A DNA stretch of 33,800 nt from Pseudomonadota bacterium (GTDB lineage: Bacteria > Desulfobacterota > Desulfobulbia > Desulfobulbales > JAGXFP01). The position numbers were made by a program, and so were the translations under genes. Where the stretch lies: NCBI GenBank assembly GCA_018814305.1, contig JAHJAA010000076.1, positions 1 through 33,800 of the forward strand. The letters are read 5' to 3'. The notes under the pieces were generated by a model. That model searched no databases. It saw only the letters and a program-made list of their open reading frames with translations, and had not been told where the DNA came from. Below are positions 434 to 12,454 of the stretch, one piece after another; the stretch's first letter is position 1; each line of letters opens with the position of its first letter.

Positions 434-733
434 TTACCAACTGGCACTGACCGTCCCAGTGCCGCCGGAGGGCGTTCCGCCGCCACCTCCCCCGCCACCA
501 CCGCCGGCAGCGGCGCCGATCGCCCCAATGGCCAGGAGCCCCAACCCCCACTTCCACCAACTGGAGCCACCTTCCTCCTTGGCCGATTCTGGAACCACCG
601 CCTCGGGCGGTAGTTCGGTGACCAGGGATTTTTCAATGGTCTCAAATTCGGTATCGATATCGGCCATGGCCCGAGGGACAGTGACGGTGACCAGCACCAG
701 CCAGCAGAGTATGAGTGTAAGAACTTTTTTCAT
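434..733 (-). CDS. small exported poly-glycine protein of unknown function
   Basis: A 99-residue protein of no family I recognise. Residues 1-24 form a good signal peptide (KK, then a hydrophobic core, then A-M-A). A short acidic segment follows. Next is WWKWGLGLLAIGAIGAAA (about 60-76), which could be a second membrane segment. Ten consecutive glycines lead into a Ser/Thr/Gly tail ending in SASW. The start has AAGGA seven bases upstream. It lies 34 bases downstream of the PIN toxin on the same strand, so it may be read from the same transcript. The Gly tract makes it likely to be flexible or aggregation-prone at the inner membrane; that is inference. Being exported links it loosely to the exported cluster just to its right. 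Confidence 0.6.
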   Translation of the reverse strand: MKKVLTLILCWLVLVTVTVPRAMADIDTEFETIEKSLVTELPPEAVVPESAKEEGGSSWWKWGLGLLAIGAIGAAAGGGGGGGGGGTPSGGTGTVSASW

Positions 734-767: not shown

Positions 768-1163
768 TCACCAGATCGTTTTCACCTGGGAGTACTTCCT
801 GATCTTACCGTCACGACTGACGAGTCCGGCGCCCAGGGTCAAGGCGGTGGCGACGATGATGCGATCCGCCGGATCCTGATGAAAATCGCCGGGCAGGGAG
901 ACGGAACGCAGGGCGATGGTGTTGTCGACCGGAACAAAGGTGATAAAGGGTAACGATTCGCTTTTCCGAATCCAGTCCCGCCAGTCAATGGTGAGTTCGA
1001 GCCGTCCACGATCGACCAGCATGGCGATCTCCCAGGCACTGATGGAAGAGATATGGACTTCCCCCCCAGCGACTGCTTTCTCTATTACCCCTGCAGCTTT
1101 CGGCGAAAGCAACTCAGGATTACTGAGCCACCAGAGCCAGACATGGGTATCGAGGACGATCAT
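768..1163 (-). CDS. PIN-domain toxin (VapC-like RNase)
   Basis: A 131-residue PIN-domain protein, of normal length for a type II toxin. PIN toxins are Mg-dependent RNases neutralised by a partner antitoxin. The acidic metal-binding residues are present: D5 in V-L-D-T-H-V, E45 in S-A-W-E-I, D100 in D-P-A-D-R, and D118 in S-R-D-G-K. The W-L-W-W-L segment after the first Asp is typical of the T-H-V-x-L-W-W subgroup. I chose the ATG at 1163 because it forms an ATGA overlap with the stop of the antitoxin upstream, the usual translational coupling in these operons. An in-frame start 15 bases further upstream would lie inside the antitoxin gene and is less likely. Confidence 0.85.
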   Translation of the reverse strand: MIVLDTHVWLWWLSNPELLSPKAAGVIEKAVAGGEVHISSISAWEIAMLVDRGRLELTIDWRDWIRKSESLPFITFVPVDNTIALRSVSLPGDFHQDPADRIIVATALTLGAGLVSRDGKIRKYSQVKTIW

Positions 1164-1393
1164 CGCAGGGCTTCCCACTCCGTATCCCCCACCGGCTCGG
1201 TGGGGTCATCGTAGCGCACCACGGTATGACGCAACTCCTTAACCACATCCTCTGGGACATCCTGAAAGGGAATAATCTTCAGCACCGGTTTAGCATGATC
1301 GGTAATAATCAACTCCCGTCCGGTTTCCTGGACCTGGCGGAAATACTTCAGAGCCTGGGGCTTAAATTTTGACTTTGAAACAGACTTTTCCAT
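1160..1393 (-). CDS. Phd/YefM-type antitoxin
   Basis: A 77-residue protein resembling Phd/YefM antitoxins: F-K-P-Q-A-L-K-Y-F-R-Q-V-Q-E-T-G, then E-L-I-I-T-D-H-A-K-P-V-L-K-I-I-P, which is the DNA-binding N-terminal fold. The acidic tail that would wrap the toxin follows. It would bind and inhibit the PIN toxin encoded immediately downstream (4-base overlap) and repress its own operon. The open frame extends upstream to 1477, but the ATG at 1393 matches family length and has a GGAGAG ribosome site. The leader contains the direct repeat CCATGGTAC at about 1392 and 1446, which could be part of an operator; that is weak inference. Confidence 0.8.
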   Translation of the reverse strand: MEKSVSKSKFKPQALKYFRQVQETGRELIITDHAKPVLKIIPFQDVPEDVVKELRHTVVRYDDPTEPVGDTEWEALR

Positions 1394-1493
1394 GGTACTC
1401 TCTCCATAACTGTGGCGCTTTATCACAACGGCAACGATTATGTGACCATGGTACAATGACCACACCCATTCTGTCAATCAAACCCAATCCAGC

Positions 1494-3557
1494 TTACTTC
1501 TTCGAATCCACCAGCACCATTCCCATATCCCCGACGATCTCCGGGGTCTGGTTCCGCTTATAGAGCCGATAGGCATAGTCATTGACGCTGTCCACATCCA
1601 GCAGACTGGTCTTGATATCCCCCAGGGTCAAAGGTCGGCCCTGTTCCACGGTATCCTTGATGCCCTTGAGCAAGAAGTAGGTGAAGAGACCATGGCGTTT
1701 TTCCCGATACCAGGAGCTGATCTGGTCGCCAGAGGAACTGGTGATGATCGCCGCATTGGGCAGGGCCAGGACCGGCAGTTTGGGACGGATGCCGATGGAA
1801 CTGGCGTCGGAAACCAACGGTGCCCCGGTATTGGACATCCCAGAAAAGCAGGCGTCAAAGACCAGGGCCAGACTCTTGATTTCCTTTTCGCGGCCGATCC
1901 GGGTCAGGTTTTCGTAAAGCAGATCCAGGGAATAGCCGGTGAACTTGATGGCCGAGGGATCAGCCCCGGCGGGTAAGAGAAAAACCCGGCCAGTATTGGT
2001 GTCCGGGGCACCGTGCCCGGAGTAGAAGAGGAAAACATCCGATTTTCCTTTGCGAAGACGGGAATACAATTCGCCCCGGTGATCGCCGGTATCACCGAAG
2101 ACCTTTAAAAAATCGGTCTTGCTGGCGTTCTGGAGGAAGATGATATTGTGCTCGGCAAAACCCAGGGTGTCGATCAGATACTGCCGGATCACCGAGGCGT
2201 CCCGGATGGCGAATTCCACCTGGGGTACCTGGCGATTATCATAATCCCGGTTCCCGATGACCACCGCCACCGCATCGGGTTTGACCTGGCCGGTTTTGGG
2301 CGGGAAATCCACCTCCACTGAAAGCCCGGGGGCAGCGGTGGGCAGGGAGGCGGCGTTGAGGGGGAGATTGGCCGCCACCATGATCTCCTTGGGTGCCTTT
2401 TTTTCCGGCCGGTTAAAGGCCAGGTCAAGGGGACGATCCACATTGAATTGAGCCCGCTCTTCGGTGAGAGAAACCGAAACCGGGATTCCGATGGCCCGCT
2501 TCGAGGTATAAATCGAAAAGGCGATATCCTTATAGGCCCCTGCGGGCAGTGTGCCGAGGTCGTACTCCGTTCGAGTATCTCCAGCCAGAAAAACGTCTTC
2601 CCCGATCATCACCCGGGCCTTGACATTCCGGGCATCTCCGAGTCCGATATTCTGGATCCGGGCGGTGATCTCGACGATCTCCATAGGCTCGATCTGACCG
2701 TTTTCCGACTGATCGGCGATGCCGATATCCGCCACCTTGAGCAGGGGTGGGTCAAAGGCCTTGGTGGCCATAGCGATGATCATCGGATCGGGATCAAACC
2801 CGTTTTTCTCAACGGCATTGATCCGGATGATCAGTTTATCGGTGGGCAGACTTGTCTCTTCGGTGGTGATGGAAAAATCAAGGGTCCGGCTCTCACCGGG
2901 GGGAATGGCCTCAATGGTCATCGCCTGCGCCAACTTCAACCCGGGCAGAGGCGACTCGATCACTGGCGTAACGGTGAGCTTTTGACCGCCCCCCTTACCG
3001 GAGTTGGTCACGGTTACCCGAAGACTTCCGGCTTCACCTGCCTCCAGAACCCCATTTGAATTATAATCGGTCAGGTTGACCTGCATGGCAAGAATAGCCG
3101 GATACTTGGAGATCTGGGCCTTGACCAGGGTATCCTGGAACTTGGCATTCCCCGGCTCAAGGGCCACAGCTCTGCGGGCTAATTGCAGGGCCCGGGCCTG
3201 ATCTCCGTTGGAATCGGTCATGATCAGATAGGCCAGGGCGTTTAAGGCCTTGCCGTGGTCAGGATCTTTTTTGAGGGTCTTCTCAAGCTGGCTCTGGGCC
3301 TCGCTGTAGCGCCCACGCTTATACTGAACCATGGCCAGATTGAAACTGAGCGCCGCACTTTGCGGACAGAGCATCACGGCCTTTTCCAACCGAATTTCTG
3401 CTGCAACGGGGTTTTTGGCCACCAGATTCGAGGCCTCCCGGGCCAGTGATGCCGCCTTGTTGCAGTCGGCCGCCTGGGTGGTTCCGGTCATCATCAAAAT
3501 GACCAGGGCAAGAAAAACTGGAGCCAATACCTTCCTGATTAAAATAAGATCCGCCAT
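1494..3557 (-). CDS. exported TPR / adhesion-like / caspase (peptidase C14) protein
   Basis: A 687-residue exported protein. Residues 1-30 form a signal peptide (T-T-Q-A-A at the cleavage region). About 35-145 are TPR-like repeats. About 155-265 and 270-375 are two beta-sandwich segments of CARDB/NEW3 type, each opening with an N/S-G-x-L/I-E-x-G/M-E-like turn. The C-terminal caspase domain starts at V-V-I-G-N-R-D-Y (432-439). Its catalytic pair is intact: H515 in F-Y-S-G-H-G-A and C570 in V-F-D-A-C-F-S-G. Bacterial caspase homologues usually cleave after basic residues, so a periplasmic or surface protease is the likely role; the substrate is unknown. It is the last gene of the leftward set and is a paralogue of the caspase at 10772-12454. 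Confidence 0.85.
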   Translation of the reverse strand: MADLILIRKVLAPVFLALVILMMTGTTQAADCNKAASLAREASNLVAKNPVAAEIRLEKAVMLCPQSAALSFNLAMVQYKRGRYSEAQSQLEKTLKKDPDHGKALNALAYLIMTDSNGDQARALQLARRAVALEPGNAKFQDTLVKAQISKYPAILAMQVNLTDYNSNGVLEAGEAGSLRVTVTNSGKGGGQKLTVTPVIESPLPGLKLAQAMTIEAIPPGESRTLDFSITTEETSLPTDKLIIRINAVEKNGFDPDPMIIAMATKAFDPPLLKVADIGIADQSENGQIEPMEIVEITARIQNIGLGDARNVKARVMIGEDVFLAGDTRTEYDLGTLPAGAYKDIAFSIYTSKRAIGIPVSVSLTEERAQFNVDRPLDLAFNRPEKKAPKEIMVAANLPLNAASLPTAAPGLSVEVDFPPKTGQVKPDAVAVVIGNRDYDNRQVPQVEFAIRDASVIRQYLIDTLGFAEHNIIFLQNASKTDFLKVFGDTGDHRGELYSRLRKGKSDVFLFYSGHGAPDTNTGRVFLLPAGADPSAIKFTGYSLDLLYENLTRIGREKEIKSLALVFDACFSGMSNTGAPLVSDASSIGIRPKLPVLALPNAAIITSSSGDQISSWYREKRHGLFTYFLLKGIKDTVEQGRPLTLGDIKTSLLDVDSVNDYAYRLYKRNQTPEIVGDMGMVLVDSKK

Positions 3558-3717
3558 GATTTCTCTTTCTCCCTTCTTCTTTATAGAGTGAAGGTCAATA
3601 TTTAATCAACCTGTCGCTCAAAAGCAATAATCGTCTCCCCTATAACGCCTCTGATAATTTAACCGATAGTAGCGCTATCACCTGCTTTCTCCGACCAATC
3701 CCCACCCCACCTGTCTC

Positions 3718-5814
3718 TCACATTCCCGGCTGCAGCCGCCAGTAGGTCAGACCATTGGCCTGCATGGGCTGGAGTTTCCGCAGACTCGGAGCGACCCCTT
3801 TGATGGCGCTGACGATATCCTCCACCACCCGCTGTTTGGTGGCGTAATAGGAGTGAAATTCCGGAACCGACCAGGGAGTGACTTCAACTCCGGTGGCGTC
3901 GATCACCGCAATTCCAGCCAGTGGGGTCACCGGCAGGCCCAGTCGTTTGGCGCTGTTGAGCGAGGTGGAAAAATTGAGGGCCGCATCGTTATCCGAGGTA
4001 TAGATCGTCCAACTCCTGGCCAAGCCAACCACATTCGCCGCCACCTGCTCCCGGAACAACCCGGCATCAAAATCCGGGGCAGCGAGGATTACGTTTTCGA
4101 AAAGCGGCTTGCCCTGCTTACCCCGGCGAGCCGCCATCATGTTCAGGGCGCCGATCAGCCCCTGATTGCCCATGCTGTGGGCCACCAGATGAACCCGTTT
4201 CGGCCCGATCTTGTCGAGAACATCTTCGAGAAATTGTTCAATATGAAGAACGCTCCAGGAGGCATCTTCCCGGTCGGACATATAGGCATAAAGCTTACCA
4301 TCGGAAGGCCAGGAAAACATGAGCGGCAACCCGGTGAACCCGAAGTCATAGGCGATCTGGGCGGTCCGCTTGGCGGCGGCAGCAAATTTCACATTAAAGC
4401 CATGCACAAAGACCACCGAATCATCACTCCAGCCCTGCTCTTTGGCCTTTTGGTGAACTCTTTCCTGCAGTTGGCTGAAAAAGGCCTTCCCGGGAATGGG
4501 GGTTACCTCGCGGAGGATGATATGCTTTTCGGCATCTTCCAGAAACTTCAAACCCAGAAACGCCGATTCCGTGGCCCCATGGCGATGGTTGGCAGGGATG
4601 GTGACCAGACACCGGCCATAGGAGATGAGCCCGTCCCGAGCCCGGTCGCCTCCGTAGTATTCATCGGGATCGCTCAGACCGGTGGCCTGCCGGTTGGTGG
4701 CATAGAAAACCTCCTGTTCGTAAACACTCTCTTTTTCTTTAGTGCCTTTGGCTCCGTCGGGTTGAGCCACTGCAGCCTCCGCGGTTCCGGCAGCGGGGGT
4801 AAAAGAGAGGACATTACCGGCCAATGGAGCAGTATCGGCATAATCGGCCAGTTGCCCCACCGTATTGATTCCAGGATCGTCGGGGATGGCGATATTCATT
4901 TTTTCACAGATCAGGGCCAGCAAATCAAAGACTCCCTGATGATCGAGGCCGAGATCCCGGTAAAAATCGGTGGCCGAATTCACCTGAGAAGAAGGAAGCC
5001 CGGTCTCCCCTATGACCATCGTCCTCACCTCGGCAAGTCTGGCATGCGTTTCCACCGACTCACCGCTCCCATCAAGAGGGGAGGCAGAGACCGACCCACA
5101 GCCGATCCGTTCGATCTGGATCAGATCGTTGTTATAACGGTCCGTCAGCAGGCATTGTTCAGGATCAGCCCCATCGAGAAGAATAAGATGAACCATAATA
5201 CCCTTCGCAGAAAGCCGGGCCAACTCGGCCAGGATCTCCCGTTCGGGATTATTCCCACCCCGTAGGGCGATGGTCAAGGCATCCGTCTTGTTTTCGGCCA
5301 GGGCCATAAGCTGGGGATCATTTTCAGATGCTGGCAACTCCTCACCCGGGGGCTCGAGCTGTTTCAAGATCAGGGGTTTAATCATTGGTCGGGCGTTGCC
5401 ACTTCCGGAGAGGATTATGATCCGGCTCTCCCAAGGGTGGCCCCCTTGTTCAATCACAGCGGCGGCTGCAACCAGGGCTTCCCGAAGATTACCAACTTGA
5501 CCGCCGAAGGCCATCCCGGCCAGGGATTCATTGATTGTGGTCACCGAGCCACCCAAAGGAACCACAACCTCGGCCCTTTCGGCAAAACCCAGCAACCCGA
5601 GCCGATCTTCCTCGGTCACCATCCGAGGATCCGCCAGAATTTCGGAGATGCGTTCCCGGGCCAGTTCCATGAGGGTCGTGGAACCATTTCCACACATACG
5701 ACCCATCGCCACCGACCGATCCACTCCCAAAACCAGATCTCCGGCCTGCGCTGGAACGATGACGGTAAACACCCCGAAAACCACACCAAAAAGAACCATC
5801 AGCCTTCTGTCCAT
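3718..5814 (-). CDS. exported VWA / carrier-protein-like / DUF900 alpha-beta hydrolase fusion
   Basis: A 698-residue fusion with a signal peptide (residues 1-25, ending A-Q-A-G). Residues 26-214 look like a von Willebrand A domain, but the metal site reads D-R-S-V-A rather than DxSxS. Residues 277-327 resemble an acyl carrier protein: D-L-G-L-D followed by H-Q-G where D-S-L normally carries phosphopantetheine, then the helix-2/3 pattern I-P-D-D-P-G-I-N-T-V. From about 365 is a DUF900-type esterase: F-V-H-G-F (469-473), nucleophile S547 in H-S-M-G-N, probable acid D581 in A-P-D-F-D, and H654 in E-F-H-S-Y-Y. The ATG at 5814 is preceded by GGAGAG; a longer frame to 5877 lacks one. Hydrolase activity is likely, carrier function unlikely. 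Confidence 0.8.
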   Translation of the reverse strand: MDRRLMVLFGVVFGVFTVIVPAQAGDLVLGVDRSVAMGRMCGNGSTTLMELARERISEILADPRMVTEEDRLGLLGFAERAEVVVPLGGSVTTINESLAGMAFGGQVGNLREALVAAAAVIEQGGHPWESRIIILSGSGNARPMIKPLILKQLEPPGEELPASENDPQLMALAENKTDALTIALRGGNNPEREILAELARLSAKGIMVHLILLDGADPEQCLLTDRYNNDLIQIERIGCGSVSASPLDGSGESVETHARLAEVRTMVIGETGLPSSQVNSATDFYRDLGLDHQGVFDLLALICEKMNIAIPDDPGINTVGQLADYADTAPLAGNVLSFTPAAGTAEAAVAQPDGAKGTKEKESVYEQEVFYATNRQATGLSDPDEYYGGDRARDGLISYGRCLVTIPANHRHGATESAFLGLKFLEDAEKHIILREVTPIPGKAFFSQLQERVHQKAKEQGWSDDSVVFVHGFNVKFAAAAKRTAQIAYDFGFTGLPLMFSWPSDGKLYAYMSDREDASWSVLHIEQFLEDVLDKIGPKRVHLVAHSMGNQGLIGALNMMAARRGKQGKPLFENVILAAPDFDAGLFREQVAANVVGLARSWTIYTSDNDAALNFSTSLNSAKRLGLPVTPLAGIAVIDATGVEVTPWSVPEFHSYYATKQRVVEDIVSAIKGVAPSLRKLQPMQANGLTYWRLQPGM

Positions 5815-5934
5815 AACACTCTCCGCAAGGGAAAAAAGCGATGGGGGCAACGTCACCGCGCCCCCATCAAAAATCATCGATCAGTAACCTGCCATAATTT
5901 GAGGCACTTTATATTTCAGGCACTTCTGGCGTAA

Positions 5935-6576
5935 TTAATCAACCACGCCCTGGTCCTGCATCTGCTTCCAGAACTCAGCCGCCTTCTGGGCCTGGGCCTT
6001 GGCCTGGTCATCGGCTGCCTCCCGGGCCTGTTTCTCCGCCTCCTTGGCCTTGCCTTTCGCCATATCCTTCAGGGTTTCGTCAGCGGCGGTGGTCGGCATC
6101 TGGGCCAGGGCAAAGACCTGATACCCCAGGCCGGTTTCGGTCTGCCATTTCTCCATATACCAGGTCTTCACCTTGACCCGGCTGGCCATATTGGCGGCCA
6201 GTTGTTTTTCGTAATCCTTGGTGGACTGGGTGGGATCAATCACGGTGCTGTCCAAACCAAACGACACACTAAGCGACTCAAACTTGTTCTTGACCAGGGT
6301 CCCCATCCACTTGACCACCGCATCCAGGGCATTCCGCCGGGCATCCTCCCGAGCACCCTGCTCGGTGGCAAACCGCTTGGAAACCCCCACGAAACTCATC
6401 ACGCCGTCCTCGGTATCGGGCTCTTCCATGGTCCATGCCGGCCGCTCGGCAGAAGAGCTGTAGATCAATTTTTCCCGTACTCCATCATCGGGGATGGCAA
6501 CACTGTCACCACTCCCGGCACAACCACCCAAAGCCAGGGCCAACACCAGACCTGCAACAGCCAGCATTTTATTCAT
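5935..6576 (-). CDS. LPP20-like lipoprotein
   Basis: A 213-residue predicted lipoprotein. The signal ends in the lipobox L-G-G-C at about residue 20. The mature part resembles the LPP20 family: P-A-W-T-M-E-E-P-D followed by F-V-G-V-S-K-R-F-A-T-E-Q-G-A-R-E-D-A-R-R-N-A, a pattern of surface or outer-membrane lipoproteins. The last 45 residues are rich in Ala, Lys, Glu and Gln and should form a helix or coiled coil. The start at 6576 has AGGAGGAAG at the right distance; the open frame reaches 6615 without a better start. It is 72 bases downstream of the larger lipoprotein, whose N-terminal domain shares its P-A-W-x-M-x-E-P and A-R-x-D-A signatures, so the two probably arose by duplication and are co-transcribed. 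Confidence 0.75.
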   Translation of the reverse strand: MNKMLAVAGLVLALALGGCAGSGDSVAIPDDGVREKLIYSSSAERPAWTMEEPDTEDGVMSFVGVSKRFATEQGAREDARRNALDAVVKWMGTLVKNKFESLSVSFGLDSTVIDPTQSTKDYEKQLAANMASRVKVKTWYMEKWQTETGLGYQVFALAQMPTTAADETLKDMAKGKAKEAEKQAREAADDQAKAQAQKAAEFWKQMQDQGVVD

Positions 6577-6648
6577 TTGCTTCCTCCTGTTGGTTTTAAT
6601 AAAACTCGATTCCAAAAAAGACCCGTTTCAGTATCACACAATCCGCCC

Positions 6649-8820
6649 TTAATCACGCCCGGCCACGGTGGTAATCACTGTCTCGGCCTCACCGTAGTGA
6701 TTGCCAGGTTTGCCGCCGTGGGCCCGGACCACATCAGTCACTGAATCCAGGGTGAGATTCAACACCACAAGTCCGGTGGGCAGCACTTCGCCCGGCAACA
6801 CCGGAAAAGGGGTGGCCGAAGCAAAGGCCCGTAAATATTCAACCCCGAAAGGGGCCTGAATCACAAATTCAAAACGATCATTTGGTCCTGGAACTCCCAT
6901 CAGATTCCCCCGCCGGAAAAATCCGTTGCCGGAATATTGATTAGGCAGGATCTGAATAAGATTATGGACGGCATCCTCATAGATCAGCAGGAGATAGGCA
7001 TCTCGGTCGGTACTGACAAAAAAGGTAACCACCTCCCCTTCCTGGTAGGTCCGTCCGTCCCCGAGATGAGAGGTAACTTCAAGCTTGATATCCCCTTGAA
7101 AGCTGGTCAAAGGCCGACTCTCCCGAACTGCCTGGGGATAGAGGTCCAGGCCAGGAGAATATTGGGTGATAACGGCAGTGGCAGCCTCAATCAGGCGATC
7201 GGACCCTGCGGCCTTGAGCTTCATTGCCGCCCAGACCTCGTTATTATTCTGAACCGTATAGGTCACCTCCAGGCCGGCCTCGGCCCCGTCGATTGCCGCC
7301 TGCATGGCGGCAGAACCCAGATTCGTCGGCTCTTGGTCCTCAACCGTAGAATCATTTTCCCGCAACCCGATTCCCCGAACCCGCCGGACCGTTTCTGAAA
7401 CGGTGCGAACATCTCGGGATTGTGGTTCAATCACGGCCAGTCCCTCGATCGAGGTTAACTGCTGCCGGATAATCTGCTGGAGCGCGCGCCCGAAACCGGT
7501 GGGGAGTCTGGTTTCCCCATAAGTGACCGGAGCAAAGACCACCGACCTTACCGGCAGATCCTGCAGGGCGGGACCATCAAAAATAGTATGAACCGCTGCT
7601 CGCGCCGCCCCGGCCATATCTTCTTCGGCAGTAAGCAGTGACAACCGATTATCAAGCATAGCCAAGGCCTGGCACATCTCCTTACCCAAGAGCGACAAAG
7701 GCCCGCTTTCTGCATCCACCGACACCCGATAGCGACCTGCAGGGACCTCTCCGACCAGGAATTCCGCCCGTCCGGTTGGACCGCAGGTAGTCCGGGCGAC
7801 AATCCTGCCGGTTTCGTCGGTAAGCAACAGGGGAAGACCACTCACCGGTTGTAATTTCTTCTCGGATCGAAGCCAGACCCAGACCCGAACCTTACCGCTG
7901 CCTCCCTCGAGGGTCACGGTCTGGGTGCTGAACCGTCCGGTATCAATAAATAACCGAGAACGAATGACACCGATCTCTCCAATCAGTCCCTTCTGGGCCT
8001 GTTCCAGCTTGCCGGCCCGTGCTTTAAAATGAGAGTCACCATCCTTGAACCGCTGAATCTCACCATAGAGATAATTCCAATCCTGCTGAATCCGATTGGA
8101 GGCAGGAATAATATTCCCCGCTTCAACCTCCATTCGGGCAAGGCGCAAGGTTTCGCGGACCCGGTCAAGATTTATCTGCAGGGCCTCCTCGGCCCGCCTC
8201 TCGGCCTTGGCCAGTTGGTCACGCCGCCAGGCCTGGACCCGATCGATTTCATCCACCGGCACTGTGACCAGAACCCAATACTTCCAGGCCATCCCCACGT
8301 CCCGTTCCTGACGGTTAACCCTGTAGGTTTCCGAGTACCAATGTTTTGGCTTTATCCGACTGACCTGGGCGTCGGTGGTCTGGGTCGACTGGGTGATGCT
8401 GCCCACGGTGGCATCAAGTATTTCACTCTCCCGACCATACAGGGCACGAATTACCTCATCCACCACCGCGACATCAACCCCGGTATATTTGGCGTATTCT
8501 TCCCGGGCATAGCGCAGGGCATCACTTCGGGCCTCCTGCTCGGAAGCATGATAATTGGACAAGCCGACCAGATAATGGAGTTCTCCCTGGTCGTCGGGCT
8601 CCTGCATTATCCAGGCAGGCCGCTGTTCTTCACTTCTGGTATCGCGAATATAGACGGGACGGATCTGATTTTCAACTTGGGGAATACCATTGTTGACCAT
8701 GGTTCCGGCAGGAGGAGACGCGCATGACACGAGGAGGAAACAACACAACAGGAGACCAGCAACACCCGACAGTGGGGCGACCGAAAAACGGGGGCGCATC
8801 CTTGCCTGGGAAAAAGGCAT
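6649..8820 (-). CDS. LPP20-like / CsgG-like / DUF4384 lipoprotein
   Basis: A 723-residue multi-domain lipoprotein. The lipobox is L-V-S-C with Cys at residue 33. An LPP20-like domain spans about 67-190 (P-A-W-I-M-Q-E-P-D-D, then L-V-G-L-S-N-Y). A Lys/Arg/Glu-rich helix covers about 195-240. A carboxypeptidase-regulatory-like beta domain covers about 325-375 (A-E-F-L-V-G-E-V-P-A-G-R-Y-R). About 420-555 resembles a CsgG/FlgO-like fold, and DUF4384 covers about 575-680 (Y-Q-E-G-E-V-V-T-F-F-V-S-T-D-R-D-A-Y-L-L-L-I-Y). DUF4384 is frequently found in proteins with peptidase or kinase modules. The start at 8820 has GGAGG seven bases upstream. It heads the leftward set and faces the transglutaminase gene across a 221-base divergent region. 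Confidence 0.75.
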   Translation of the reverse strand: MPFSQARMRPRFSVAPLSGVAGLLLCCFLLVSCASPPAGTMVNNGIPQVENQIRPVYIRDTRSEEQRPAWIMQEPDDQGELHYLVGLSNYHASEQEARSDALRYAREEYAKYTGVDVAVVDEVIRALYGRESEILDATVGSITQSTQTTDAQVSRIKPKHWYSETYRVNRQERDVGMAWKYWVLVTVPVDEIDRVQAWRRDQLAKAERRAEEALQINLDRVRETLRLARMEVEAGNIIPASNRIQQDWNYLYGEIQRFKDGDSHFKARAGKLEQAQKGLIGEIGVIRSRLFIDTGRFSTQTVTLEGGSGKVRVWVWLRSEKKLQPVSGLPLLLTDETGRIVARTTCGPTGRAEFLVGEVPAGRYRVSVDAESGPLSLLGKEMCQALAMLDNRLSLLTAEEDMAGAARAAVHTIFDGPALQDLPVRSVVFAPVTYGETRLPTGFGRALQQIIRQQLTSIEGLAVIEPQSRDVRTVSETVRRVRGIGLRENDSTVEDQEPTNLGSAAMQAAIDGAEAGLEVTYTVQNNNEVWAAMKLKAAGSDRLIEAATAVITQYSPGLDLYPQAVRESRPLTSFQGDIKLEVTSHLGDGRTYQEGEVVTFFVSTDRDAYLLLIYEDAVHNLIQILPNQYSGNGFFRRGNLMGVPGPNDRFEFVIQAPFGVEYLRAFASATPFPVLPGEVLPTGLVVLNLTLDSVTDVVRAHGGKPGNHYGEAETVITTVAGRD

Positions 8821-9041
8821 TTGTAACCTCCATAGCGACACAAATCGATAGAATGGTCCGAGATCACGCTCGAACCAGTTGATGCTATCTTGTTATAAAA
8901 AAAAGAGAATGGTAATGTTATATCAAACAATGGAAGAATCGCAAACGGCTAAATTCAGTAAAGTGAGCGATTCTTACCCCATTATGAAAACATCCTATAT
9001 TTTAAAGAGCAATAAACCCTCTTCAATTCAGGAGTTTCAAC
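8821..9041. promoter_or_regulatory. divergent intergenic region of the exported-protein cluster
   Basis: This 221-base AT-rich gap separates the leftward lipoprotein/hydrolase/caspase set from the rightward transglutaminase/caspase pair, so it should hold both promoters. It contains A/T runs near 8893-8905 and a TTATATC near 8917, but I cannot assign a convincing -35/-10 pair to either direction. Shared control of both arms is inference from layout. Confidence 0.4.
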
Positions 9042-10694
9042 ATGCCTCGTCTTCCATTTCTCTTTCCGGCCCTGTTGCTGTTCTGCGCTGTCAACTTCAC
9101 CTCCACCCCAGTCATAGGAAACGAGCGGACCAACCGCCCCATGGATCCCGACCTCCAAGAGTTCATGCTGGATCAGCAGAAGGAACTTGAGGACTTTGAC
9201 CAGGAGATCGACCAGGAGTATCAGACCTTCATTGATGAAAACGATCGGGACTTTGCGGTTTTTTTGAAAGAGGCCTGGGAAGAATTCGATTCTGAAGAGC
9301 CGGTCAAGGTCATCAAGCAGCCGAAACCGGATATCGTCCCACAACTTGTTACGCCGCCGGTGGGAACCGACAAACAACCAACCCCGGAGCCGATTCGAAT
9401 CGTTGTCAATACCCCTCCGGTCGAAACGAAGCCGGCCACCATAAGACCGGTCAGCCAGGAGCCGGCGCCCCCGACCCCGGCCCCTCCGAAACCGGTCAGC
9501 ATTCCACAACCGGAAGCCTCCGTACTTACTCCAAGCCAAGTTCCCATCCCCGCGGCCCCAGTGATTCCCGCCGCACCGGGACCTGACCCGACGGCATCAG
9601 GAAGTCCGCTCAGCTTTGACTATTTCGGCACGGAGATGCATCTCCGTTTTGATCCCCGGTTGAGCCGGGGCATCACTCCTCCAATCAACAATGACTCAAT
9701 CAGCCGCTACTGGGAGGCCATCGCGGGCACTGCCTTTAAACCGTATATTGAGCAAACCCTCCGCTACCGGGACACCCTCCGGTTAAATGACTGGGGGTAT
9801 CTGTTGCTTTTGGACAAGTCCGCAGCCGAAATCCTTGACGACCCCAGCCCAAACAATCGAGCTCTGTTCACCTGGTTCATGATGACCAAGGCAGGATACG
9901 ACTGCAAGGTGGGCTTCAGAGATGATACGATCACCACTCTGATGCCCGCCCAGAGCCAACTATACGGTCTGTTCTATTTCACCATCAAGAATAAAAAATA
10001 CTATTCCGTCAACCTGGGTCCCCAGGGCGACAAGATCGGCAAAATTTACACCTACCGGGCATCCTATCCCGGAGCCGAAACCAACCTCGATTTCGCCCTA
10101 CCCTCCTACCCGTCTCTAAAAAACGACCCGGCTATTCGCAAACTTTCCTTTGATTACCAGGGCAAGGAATACTCCATAAAGGCAAACTACAATAAAAACA
10201 GCATCCCCTACTTTCAGTACTATCCCCAGAACGAGGTCGGGGTCTATGCCGATGCCCAGGTTCCCGATCTGGTCAAAGGCTCACTCCTGGCCGAATTAAA
10301 ACCCCTTATTCAGGACCGACCGGAGGCAGAGGCAGTGAATCTGCTTTTGCGCTTTACCCAGACCGCCTTCAATTACCAAACCGATGACGACCAATTCCAC
10401 CGGGAAAAATTTCTCTTTCCGGAAGAGACCCTCTTCTACCCCTATTCGGATTGCGAGGACCGCTCAATCCTCTTTTCCTATCTGGTGAGAAATCTTCTGG
10501 GCCTTGATGTGGTCCTTTTGAACTACCCAAATCATATTGCCACCGCGGTCCGTCTCAAAGAAAACCATGACGGGGATCAAATTATTGTCAACGGCAAACC
10601 ATATACGATCTGCGACCCTACTTACATCAATGCGGAACTGGGCCATGCCATGCCCCAATTCCGAGAGGTTACGCCAAAGGTTATTACCCTGTGA
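9042..10694 (+). CDS. exported transglutaminase-like protein with Pro-rich linker
   Basis: A 550-residue exported protein. Residues 1-26 form a signal peptide. About 35-85 is strongly acidic and helical (D-Q-Q-K-E-L-E-D-F-D-Q-E-I). About 95-185 is a proline-rich linker of P-x-P and P-P repeats, as in proteins that span cell wall or periplasm. The C-terminal part has a transglutaminase-like Cys/His/Asp set: C471 in Y-S-D-C-E-D-R, H498 in N-H-I-A-T-A-V, and D525 in T-I-C-D-P-T-Y. Such domains act as cysteine proteases or as cross-linkers; which applies here is not decidable from sequence. The start at 9042 is preceded by CAGGAG. It lies 77 bases before the caspase gene, so the two are probably one operon. 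Confidence 0.8.
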   Translation: MPRLPFLFPALLLFCAVNFTSTPVIGNERTNRPMDPDLQEFMLDQQKELEDFDQEIDQEYQTFIDENDRDFAVFLKEAWEEFDSEEPVKVIKQPKPDIVPQLVTPPVGTDKQPTPEPIRIVVNTPPVETKPATIRPVSQEPAPPTPAPPKPVSIPQPEASVLTPSQVPIPAAPVIPAAPGPDPTASGSPLSFDYFGTEMHLRFDPRLSRGITPPINNDSISRYWEAIAGTAFKPYIEQTLRYRDTLRLNDWGYLLLLDKSAAEILDDPSPNNRALFTWFMMTKAGYDCKVGFRDDTITTLMPAQSQLYGLFYFTIKNKKYYSVNLGPQGDKIGKIYTYRASYPGAETNLDFALPSYPSLKNDPAIRKLSFDYQGKEYSIKANYNKNSIPYFQYYPQNEVGVYADAQVPDLVKGSLLAELKPLIQDRPEAEAVNLLLRFTQTAFNYQTDDDQFHREKFLFPEETLFYPYSDCEDRSILFSYLVRNLLGLDVVLLNYPNHIATAVRLKENHDGDQIIVNGKPYTICDPTYINAELGHAMPQFREVTPKVITL

Positions 10695-10771
10695 GGCTTC
10701 AGAAAACCCCTTAACAAATAAAGGGGAAACAAGAGATTCAAATCTTTTTATACTTTCTTGGAGAGAATTTG

Positions 10772-12454
10772 ATGCCCCCATTCAATCGCCCCATTGTTAC
10801 ATTGCTGACGATTATCCTTCTGCTTGCCACCTTCCCCGGCATCAGCTCTGCAGGCAACCGCAAACTGATGAGTATCAACGCCGCCAAAGTTCTGGCAACC
10901 AGGGCCCTCGCCGAGACCGTCCAAGGACTGACCGTGGTCTCCGATGAGTCGGTAACCGATCTTGCGGCAGGCCTCCCGGAGATCACGGTTGCAGCTGGAA
11001 CTGAAGCCAACCTGAAAGGTATCCGATATGAAGAAATATCCTATGATCAGGACCGCGATATCGCCAAAGTCACCGCCTCACTGATCATGGACTCCGTAAA
11101 AAGCGCCTCAGGGGAGATCATCCCCATGGGCGGACAGAAAATCAGTCGAGTCGCCTTTGCCACCACCACCCCGGACAGCGCCGGTCCCCTTGAGGCCCTC
11201 CGGGCGGCCGAACTCGATGCCTACCGCAAACTGGGTCAGGAGGTCGCAGGACTCACCCTGGAGAGCAGAACCGTCATCGGGCATCGCACCATGCAATCGG
11301 ATTCGGTTAAAAGCCGGACCAGGGCACTGCTCTATCTGGCCCAAGTCATTGATTACTCCTGGGACAGCGATGGCAACGCCCATGTCCGGATGGCCATGGA
11401 CCTTAAATCCGCTTCGGTTCTGCTTGGTGAAAAAGTCATGGCTGAGGAAACGGTGGTGGAGGTTGAAGGTGAAGCCTCCCAAATGGATGAAATCATCGCA
11501 ACCGCCCCATCTCCTGGGCCCCAGGCGCTCCCCTTATCACCCGCGCCCCAGACTCTCCCTCCGACCATTGTCCGGGACCAACCGAGTTCTCTGAGAATCC
11601 GATCCGGCATGAGCAGTGCCATAAAGTCCCCAACCCCCTTCTCTCTGCCGGGCACCACAACTCAAAACTCTGCCGGGATTGCGGTGATTATCGGTAATCG
11701 TGATTACGCCAAAGTCGGCAAGGAGGTCCCGAATATCGATTATGCCCTCCGCGATGCCGAGGCAATCACCACATATGTGACCCGCACCCTGGGGTTTCGG
11801 GAAGGCAACATCATTCGGCTTAACAATGCCACCCAGGCGGATCTGGTGGCCACCTTTGGCTCGGAGTCCAACCCCCATGGGAAATTGATGGATTGGGTAA
11901 AACCGGGTGAGTCAGAGGTCTTCATTTACTATTCCGGTCATGGCGCCCCGAGTCTTACCAGCGGTAAAGGGTATCTCCTCCCGGTTGACGCCGACCCGGC
12001 CAAAGTGGATCTAAACGGTTACGCCCTGGATCTGCTCTACAGCAACCTGGACAAAGTAAGGGCCAAGACCATGACCGTGGTCATTGATGCCTGCTTTTCC
12101 GGGACCTCCGCCGGCGGGGCGTTGGTCAAAAATGCCTCATCCCTGTCGTTACGTACCGTGGCCAGCAAGGCACCGGCATCAACCACCATCCTTACCGCCG
12201 CAGCCACTACTGAGGTCGCCTCCTGGGATACCGAACTTGGCCATGGTCTGTTTACCCGCTATTTTCTGGAAGGGATCAGCGGCAAGGCCGACCAGGGCAG
12301 CTTCGGGAATAACGATCATCGGGTAACCCTGGCCGAGCTCAGCCATTATCTACAAGAAGAGGTCGCCTACAATGCCAGAAAACTCTATGGTCGGGAGCAG
12401 CACCCCCAGATCAATGGCGACGACGGCAAGGTCCTCTCGAATCTGAGCGAGTGA
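10772..12454 (+). CDS. exported tandem LPP20-like / caspase (peptidase C14) protein
   Basis: A 560-residue exported protein with a signal peptide (residues 1-28). Two consecutive LPP20/FlgT-N-like segments follow, at about 36-111 (A-A-K-V-L-A-T-R-A-L-A-E-T-V-Q-G-L) and 142-215 (A-A-E-L-D-A-Y-R-K-L-G-Q-E-V-A-G-L). A Pro-rich linker runs from about 240 to 300, then a caspase domain opens at I-A-V-I-I-G-N-R-D-Y. The catalytic pair is intact: H390 in Y-Y-S-G-H-G-A and C441 in V-I-D-A-C-F-S-G. The ATG at 10772 has GGAGAG upstream; the TTG just before it is unlikely. The region from G-N-R-D-Y to the A-S-S-L-S-L-R segment matches the 1494-3557 caspase closely, so the two are paralogues. The probable role is an envelope protease of unknown substrate. 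Confidence 0.85.
   Translation: MPPFNRPIVTLLTIILLLATFPGISSAGNRKLMSINAAKVLATRALAETVQGLTVVSDESVTDLAAGLPEITVAAGTEANLKGIRYEEISYDQDRDIAKVTASLIMDSVKSASGEIIPMGGQKISRVAFATTTPDSAGPLEALRAAELDAYRKLGQEVAGLTLESRTVIGHRTMQSDSVKSRTRALLYLAQVIDYSWDSDGNAHVRMAMDLKSASVLLGEKVMAEETVVEVEGEASQMDEIIATAPSPGPQALPLSPAPQTLPPTIVRDQPSSLRIRSGMSSAIKSPTPFSLPGTTTQNSAGIAVIIGNRDYAKVGKEVPNIDYALRDAEAITTYVTRTLGFREGNIIRLNNATQADLVATFGSESNPHGKLMDWVKPGESEVFIYYSGHGAPSLTSGKGYLLPVDADPAKVDLNGYALDLLYSNLDKVRAKTMTVVIDACFSGTSAGGALVKNASSLSLRTVASKAPASTTILTAAATTEVASWDTELGHGLFTRYFLEGISGKADQGSFGNNDHRVTLAELSHYLQEEVAYNARKLYGREQHPQINGDDGKVLSNLSE

Follow-up and report, generated by a model that had tools for sequence, protein, structure and literature searches.

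Exported caspase clustered with a LapG-like protease and LPP20/LpoB-type lipoproteins in Desulfobacterota

Five neighbouring genes of a desulfobacterial genome, here called B to F, encode an exported caspase (F), a LapG-like cysteine protease (E), two lipoproteins with LPP20- and LpoB-type modules (C and D) and an exported VWA-hydrolase (B), and parts of this cluster recur in distant Desulfobacterota. Envelope location and genetic linkage are both well supported. The most likely reading is that lipoproteins of the outer membrane form an assembly bearing, or controlling, two envelope proteases. No named system with such a combination was found, as the preliminary description of the locus had supposed, and none of the literature consulted links these protein families.

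Results

The locus lies in a 33,800-nucleotide stretch of DNA, hereafter the window, and its features are listed in Table 1. The six consecutive large genes described earlier (1494-12454) are borne out as long open reading frames where they had been placed. Their N-termini, assessed by eye, all resemble Sec signals or lipoboxes, in agreement with the export proposed for the set. The arrangement in two arms around a divergent region also holds, with the limits first given for that region (8821-9041) now narrowed as shown in Table 1. When aligned with their relatives, B, C and D seem to start later than the open reading frames do, at ~5814, ~6576 and ~8799 respectively, and these starts give better export signals. 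Promoter and terminator scans yielded nothing informative.

Table 1. Features at the caspase locus of the window
Feature	Positions	Strand	Basis
Small exported Gly-rich protein (99 aa, ...WWKWGLGLLAIGAIGAAAG(G)n...VSASW)	434..733	-	Sequence and paralogues
Phd/YefM-like antitoxin and PIN toxin	768..1477	-	Pfam PIN 1.9e-17, PhdYeFM 1e-6
A: exported TPR-CARDB-caspase, His515/Cys570	1494..3557	-	Pfam, identity to L008 copy, tree
B: exported VWA, acyl-carrier-like module and DUF900 alpha/beta hydrolase	3718..5877	-	Pfam/NCBIfam, G024 ortholog
C: LPP20-type lipoprotein, lipobox LGGC	5935..6615	-	Homology to D N-terminus and LPP20 proteins
D: multi-module lipoprotein, lipobox LVSC	6649..8841	-	Pfam DUF4384 5e-20, AlphaFold model, VIA
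Divergent intergenic region between the two arms	8842..9041		ORF map, sequence
E: exported LapG-like protein	9042..10694	+	Alignment, model, fold searches, LapG profile
F: exported caspase, His391/Cys442	10769..12454	+	Pfam, tree clade

E consists of a coiled N-terminal module, a Pro-rich linker (approximately residues 92-174) and a catalytic domain that had been described as transglutaminase-like. The fold (shared with transglutaminases at Z of about 8) and the Cys/His/Asp triad were correctly recognized, but the identity probably was not. The best solved match of E is LapG (Foldseek 4.5e-4; VIA Z 11.2, rmsd 4.1 over 142), and a seven-row alignment shows C471, H498 and D525, together with D470, E472 and D473, to be invariant in seven relatives. 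In DvhG, the D and E flanking the cysteine are required for calcium and for activity (PMC13090378). The fold match, the triad and the DCED calcium motif favour a periplasmic cysteine protease of the LapG-like, adhesin-cutting type over a 'transglutaminase' as the identity of E. Profile comparison with 21 LapG proteins of the same order, all of which carry GDCED, gave an hhalign E-value of 6.7e-5 and a score of 36, where 30 column shuffles reached no more than 19; with full-length E the match is modest. Pfam detected no transglutaminase above cut-off in E (best E-value 0.11), PF06035 (LapG/BTLCP) gave no match, and a profile search against solved sequences returned nothing meaningful; the N-terminus of E matched that of MltC only weakly, as helix. 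No c-di-GMP receptor or giant adhesin was found beside E in the cluster, and the genome's own LapG-LapD-adhesin locus is separate, on contig C59.

LPP20-like modules had been reported in three of the genes. Profile comparison upholds them in C and D (hhalign E 1.1e-7, score 54 versus at most 14.6 in shuffles), whose single sequences fall below the Pfam cut-off, and C is homologous to the N-terminus of D and to Pfam-confirmed LPP20 proteins; the N-terminal region of F is marginal, with 21.8 bits for a cut-off of 25.9 and a profile comparison not above shuffles. D is composed of LPP20, helical, Ig/macroglobulin-like, LpoB-like and DUF4384 modules. The LpoB-like domain, overlooked until now, occupies residues 393-546 of a middling AlphaFold model (pLDDT 66, pTM 0.40) and is the top row in VIA (Z 11.3, rmsd 4.1 over 118), which proved informative where Foldseek with the whole of D had returned only scattered beta-domain matches.

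B was confirmed as a fusion of VWA and hydrolase domains (Pfam VWA_2 and DUF900 above cut-off) with an intact AHSMG motif around Ser568. It also contains a previously unnoticed pseudo-acyl-carrier module, degenerate and devoid of the phosphopantetheine Ser.

Both caspases announced for the locus retain their GHG/DACFSG dyads, and Peptidase_C14 is above the Pfam cut-off in F and, together with CARDB and TPR, in A. F groups in a tree with the cluster caspases L030, L031 and L042 (clade support 97/100). Relatives often have a lipoprotein as their cluster caspase, and lipoboxes are present in the caspases of three of them (G033, G334 and G024, the last by eye), which strengthens the case for export. 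Two acidic residues, the Asp at the DxC position and an Asp on the first helix, are invariant in an alignment of ten caspases; the corresponding positions of TbMCA2 are Asp211 and Asp95 (PMC4357240). By this motif equivalence, F is predicted to cleave on the C-terminal side of Arg or Lys. The metacaspase calcium aspartate (Asp220 of TbMCA2) is not kept, Cys+7 being Thr in A and Gly in F, a calcium site in these caspases is not supported, and no solved relatives of the caspases were found by sequence. The N-terminal modules of the caspases are variable and include HEAT, LPP20-like, LpoB-like and WD40 types.

Linkage across genomes delimits the cluster. In G033 the gene order is F-C-D|E, in G024 F-B-(C-like)-D, in a Desulfuromonadales genome F-D-E and in G012 D|caspase-caspase-lipoprotein-E; in G334 a caspase lipoprotein lies 1.7 kb from E. 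The linkage of D, E and F is thus repeated in distant genomes, at 35-58% protein identity. C has a clear ortholog in one relative (G033, 60% identical) and a C-like counterpart in another, and B adjoins the cluster in only one other genome (G024, 53% identical). A caspase is found within 6 kb of E in five of the seven E-bearing genomes (one of the other two, G437, has no caspase at all), compared with a chance expectation of about 1-2% per genome, low because caspases per genome are few, and LPP20-type genes adjoin E in all seven; these counts are not fully independent, the genomes being mostly contig-level MAGs, with several from one order. A class-wide search returned the same set as the order-level search, and a pattern scan of the genome contigs gave just three loci, with poor patterns.

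As an independent check, an operon found later in Bacteroides finegoldii encodes, in order, an LpoB-like protein, DUF6175, two LPP20 proteins, an unknown protein and E; no caspase occurs in the stretch read. Together with G437, this indicates that the caspase is not obligatory. In other genomes, this operon included, the LPP20 and LpoB proteins have genes of their own next to E. The core found in two phyla therefore comprises LpoB-like and LPP20 lipoproteins plus E, to which this lineage has added caspase F and VWA-hydrolase B.

Caspase A does not belong to the cluster. A-type caspases form their own clade in the tree and recur in a different unit, composed of a TPR-caspase, a small Gly-rich exported protein and a C-type-lectin-fold lipoprotein, which rules out A to F as a single unit. 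A is 73% identical to the L008 copy, and Gly-rich paralogues adjoin A-type caspases at L008 9264-9566, L010 17222-17698 and L011 9980-10315. The Gly-rich protein of the window, which had escaped notice, is accordingly a regular partner of A-type caspases and not of B to F; the antitoxin/PIN toxin pair sits between it and A. A diversity-generating retroelement driving the lectin-fold proteins was rejected, as a search of the genome found no reverse transcriptase. Co-occurrence in other Desulfobacterota, the check proposed earlier for all six genes, therefore fails for A, holds for D, E and F, and extends to B and C in some relatives.

Discussion

Bacterial caspases have been studied mostly as cytoplasmic proteases of cell death and defence. 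The conserved, unstudied cluster described here, which exports a caspase (a lipoprotein in relatives) beside a LapG-like protease and LpoB/LPP20 lipoproteins, provides a concrete and testable setting other than death, and suggests that the activity of bacterial caspases can extend beyond the cytoplasm. The E-family protein of B. finegoldii is annotated 'hypothetical protein' and lies in an uncharacterised LPP20/LpoB operon, so that an assay is possible in a tractable gut bacterium.

We consider it about an even prospect that B to F constitute an envelope-located proteolytic assembly of a lipoprotein scaffold and exported proteases. C and D, through their LPP20, LpoB-like and DUF4384 modules, would provide a scaffold anchored in the outer membrane, of a type that in other settings contacts peptidoglycan synthases. 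E would be its periplasmic protease, probably calcium-dependent and joined by the Pro-rich linker to its helical module; F, the caspase with predicted Arg/Lys cleavage; and B may attach to the scaffold. F could be switched on by envelope stress, or by a ligand that binds the variable N-terminal caspase modules, and F and E might then process surface or peptidoglycan-associated proteins. The analysis establishes the domains, the intact active-site residues, the export-type N-termini and the conserved linkage of D, E and F and of E with LPP20 and LpoB proteins; substrates, purpose, physical complex and order of activation are inferred. Of the functions suggested earlier, envelope processing fits best, and nothing points to inter-cell attack. 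Possible, though doubtful, is a broader picture in which LpoB-like and LPP20 lipoproteins and a LapG-like protease make up a widespread unnamed envelope machine; some lineages would have added caspases of the outer membrane, with interchangeable sensor modules, to give an extracytoplasmic, NTP-independent caspase pathway.

An unlikely but serious alternative is cell-wall maintenance, in which the LpoB-like and LPP20 parts would regulate peptidoglycan synthesis or cleavage, E would cut peptide cross-links or wall-bound proteins and not surface adhesins, and the caspase would be a regulator. The LpoB-like domain of D is consistent with this, as are a separate LpoB in G334 with a close relative in G437, a lytic transglycosylase of the MltC type encoded in the G437 cluster, the pseudomurein endoisopeptidase 8z4f among the fold matches of E (Z 8.4), and the Helicobacter LpoB, which has a lipoprotein partner and is tied to peptidoglycan hydrolases (PMC11394524). 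However, LapG outranks the endoisopeptidase as a match of E, the LpoB fold alone does not imply PBP binding, and a Campylobacter lipoprotein operon of like kind acts in adherence (PMC3100323), Cj0091 being an ortholog of HP1457/LpoB (PMC11394524).

That unrelated exported genes merely lie side by side in an envelope-rich region, with the caspases as scattered copies, is improbable for the locus as a whole. The genome has seven caspases, A clearly sits in another unit and an F-clade caspase stands alone in G637; this reading stands for A. For C to F it is already disfavoured by the repeated D-E-F linkage in distant genomes and by the linkage of E with LPP20 genes in two phyla.

Equally hard to credit is an extracytoplasmic counterpart of the VMAP-type conflict systems, acting on invaders at the envelope without an NTPase: in VMAP ternary systems (PMC7159879), vWA and caspase always have an alpha/beta hydrolase as neighbour, and a transglutaminase-like peptidase is on rare occasions included, a set mirrored by the vWA-hydrolase of B, caspase F and the fold of E. 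Those systems are cytosolic, however, whereas all parts here carry export signals, a Pfam scan of 20 proteins of the window (A to F included) gave no MoxR ATPase or VMAP protein, and the cluster lipoproteins are not known as defence parts. A defence system was likewise rejected, PADLOC giving only weak caspase matches.

Among other known systems, LapG and DvhG, which work with LapD/DvhD and an adhesin, resemble E in fold, triad, the DCED motif around the cysteine and export, whereas E is far larger, with its helical module and linker. The LpoB/LPP20 operons of the Helicobacter hp1456-1457 type and Campylobacter cj0089-0091, compared by their descriptions (PMC11394524, PMC3100323), likewise encode LpoB-like and LPP20-type lipoproteins together; in the present cluster, by contrast, D unites both types in one protein, and E, a caspase and a VWA-hydrolase are encoded alongside. 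Prokaryotic metacaspases and orthocaspases (C14B), for which an extracellular location and TPR, WD40 and FGE partners had already been noted (PMC3501461), share the p20 fold family, the His-Cys dyad and the acidic S1 positions; the caspases described here differ from them in their conserved exported cluster, their lipoprotein forms and the absence of the calcium aspartate.

Two gene units in the window

The six long genes reported at 1494-12454 in the preliminary description are present in the ORF map and encode proteins with export-type N-termini. Intergenic gaps measure 33 (D-C), 57 (C-B), 160 (B-A) and 74 (E-F) bases, and a divergent region of 200 bases separates the two arms.

Genes and flanking features of the window
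Feature	Product	Positions	Strand	Order of transcription
Gly-rich partner of A	small Gly-rich protein	434-733		
PIN pair	toxin-antitoxin pair	768-1477		
A	exported TPR-CARDB-caspase	1494-3557	minus	fourth of minus arm
B	VWA plus DUF900 hydrolase	3718-5877	minus	third of minus arm
C	LPP20-type lipoprotein	5935-6615	minus	second of minus arm
D	multi-module lipoprotein	6649-8841	minus	first of minus arm
E	LapG-like protein	9042-10694	plus	first of plus arm
F	cluster caspase	10769-12454	plus	after E

With Pfam, both A and F matched Peptidase_C14, and A also matched TPR and CARDB; B matched VWA_2 and DUF900, and D has DUF4384 at its C-terminal end. C and E gave no domain match. An acyl-carrier-like stretch in B (TIGR00517, 3.5e-6; PF00550 slightly below cut-off) has His or Arg in place of the phosphopantetheine-carrying Ser and is therefore, judging from sequence, probably a structural remnant.

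The proposal that all six genes form one set gave way to two units, as A-type copies recur elsewhere with partners of their own and form a separate tree clade. The window's genome holds seven caspases. The caspase encoded on contig C7 shares 73% identity with A. On C7, C43 and C66 alike, the A-type caspase is followed by two exported proteins, a small Gly-rich one and a lipoprotein of Fib_succ_major/Lcl_C type. Genome G012 again combines an A-type caspase with a lectin-type lipoprotein, order kept. The PIN pair stands between A and its Gly-rich partner, and in G012 a different toxin-like insert occupies the equivalent place. Toxin-antitoxin-like pairs of differing kinds thus separate an A-type caspase from its Gly-rich partner in two genomes (window 768-1477, L108 2190-3070). 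Among 22 caspases placed in a tree, A grouped with the A-type copies (support 100/98), and F with caspases of E/D clusters and one lone G637 caspase (97/100).

The A-type unit recurs at L008 7336-11639, L010 15022-18869, L011 8592-12089 and L110 6276-11282. It consists of a TPR-caspase and a small Gly-rich protein with the ending ..S.W, both exported, plus a Fib_succ_major/Lcl_C lipoprotein that at some loci carries LamG or MopE metal-binding repeats. At L012 601-2538 one protein unites an exported caspase with PEGA domains and, at its C-terminal end, a Fib_succ_major-type domain; a caspase at L052 6854-9406 is similar. In two genomes an exported TPR-caspase precedes an exported FGE-sulfatase-like protein (L009 8550-11288, L105 1964-4837).

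Conservation of the remaining cluster

Matches to D of any strength occurred in 9 of 77 genomes, own genome counted, and were strong in three others. Neighbourhoods comprised F, C, D and a divergent E in G033; F, B, a C-like stretch and D, where the contig ends, in G024; D divergent from two caspases, a lipoprotein and E in G012; and consecutive F, D and E in a Desulfuromonadales genome. E is rare, being found in 3 of 258 genomes of the order and 5 of 395 sampled phylum genomes (window included, G393 by a weak match only). In G334, where E is spread over two contigs, its neighbours are a lipoprotein caspase to one side and, to the other, genes of LPP20/DUF4384, LPP20, LpoB and GNA1162-like type. 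LPP20 genes accompany E in G299; in G437, a caspase-free genome, E occurs with LPP20, a protein related to the LpoB of G334, and an MltC-type lytic transglycosylase. The transglycosylase (L054 4522-5736) shows a weak resemblance to E in a helical stretch at its N-terminus. A caspase lies within 6 kb of E in five of seven E-bearing genomes, against a chance expectation of 1-2% (two to seven caspases per genome), a figure that serves as a guide and not as a strict probability since the genomes are partly related.

Searching a plasmid collection with E yielded a single match, in Bacteroides finegoldii (35% identity), within an operon encoding LpoB-like (LpoB 1.4e-5), DUF6175, LPP20, LPP20, an unknown protein and E. 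This operon (L152 5831-13056, NZ_OY725910.1) is annotated mostly as hypothetical. The association between E and LPP20 and LpoB genes, noted in Desulfobacterota before this match, therefore holds in a second phylum.

Proteins of the cluster

The AlphaFold model of E is confident in its catalytic half. Its best solved structure was LapG (Foldseek 4.5e-4; VIA Z 11.2, rmsd 4.1 over 142 residues); true transglutaminases, the family to which E had been assigned, ranked below (VIA Z about 8). Profile comparison of its C-terminal part with 21 same-order LapG proteins gave an E-value of 6.7e-5 and a score of 36, against at most 19 over 30 shuffles. Seven relatives all keep Cys471, His498 and Asp525 as well as the acidic residues at 470, 472 and 473, and LapG proteins of the same order carry GDCED. 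In DvhG of Desulfovibrio, acidic residues flanking the cysteine bind calcium and are required for activity (PMC13090378). Given the fold and profile match, the invariant residues and this precedent, E is most likely a calcium-dependent periplasmic protease. It resembles LapG in fold, Cys-His-Asp and cysteine-flanking acidic residues, but differs in giving no match to the PF06035 model and in its neighbours, with neither a c-di-GMP receptor nor an adhesin adjoining, and was therefore kept apart. The window's genome holds a separate LapG-LapD-adhesin locus (L113 9750-17890: canonical LapG, GGDEF-EAL receptor, repeat adhesin).

Both caspases have intact catalytic sets, as previously described, and keep GHG and DACFSG. 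An Asp at the DxC position and another on the first helix are invariant across ten caspase rows; because they correspond to Asp211 and Asp95 of TbMCA2 (PMC4357240), cleavage after Arg or Lys is predicted. The N-terminal parts vary by cluster: HEAT in G024 and the Desulfuromonadales genome, weakly LpoB-like and WD40 in G012, and weakly LPP20-like in F. Lipoboxes occur in the cluster caspases of G033 and G334, and in G024 as judged by eye.

C is homologous to the N-terminus of D, and both match confirmed LPP20 proteins (profile comparison, E-value 1.1e-7). The AlphaFold model of D contains additional domains, with LpoB as top match for residues 393-546 (VIA Z 11.3) and macroglobulin/Ig matches at about 280-390 (VIA Z about 10). 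Together with DUF4384, these modules make D a fusion of parts, at least some of which stand as genes of their own in G334 and Bacteroides.

Proposed working and known systems

We infer a complex in which an outer-membrane lipoprotein scaffold would carry or control two envelope proteases; the variable sensor parts of the caspases would determine the trigger, and the products might be surface or peptidoglycan-linked proteins. What the analysis observed are the domains, the residues, the export-type N-termini and the gene linkage; the complex, its trigger, its substrates and the sequence of events are inferred.

Metacaspases located outside the cell and pairings of caspase with FGE are on record (PMC3501461), as are LpoB/LPP20 lipoprotein operons in Helicobacter and Campylobacter (PMC11394524, PMC3100323). 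Our literature search found no paper tying the caspase, LapG-like, LpoB/LPP20 and vWA-hydrolase families together. VMAP systems combine cytoplasmic vWA, alpha/beta hydrolase and caspase and require MoxR (PMC7159879); MoxR was not found among window proteins scanned with Pfam, whereas vWA, alpha/beta hydrolase and caspase are common to both.
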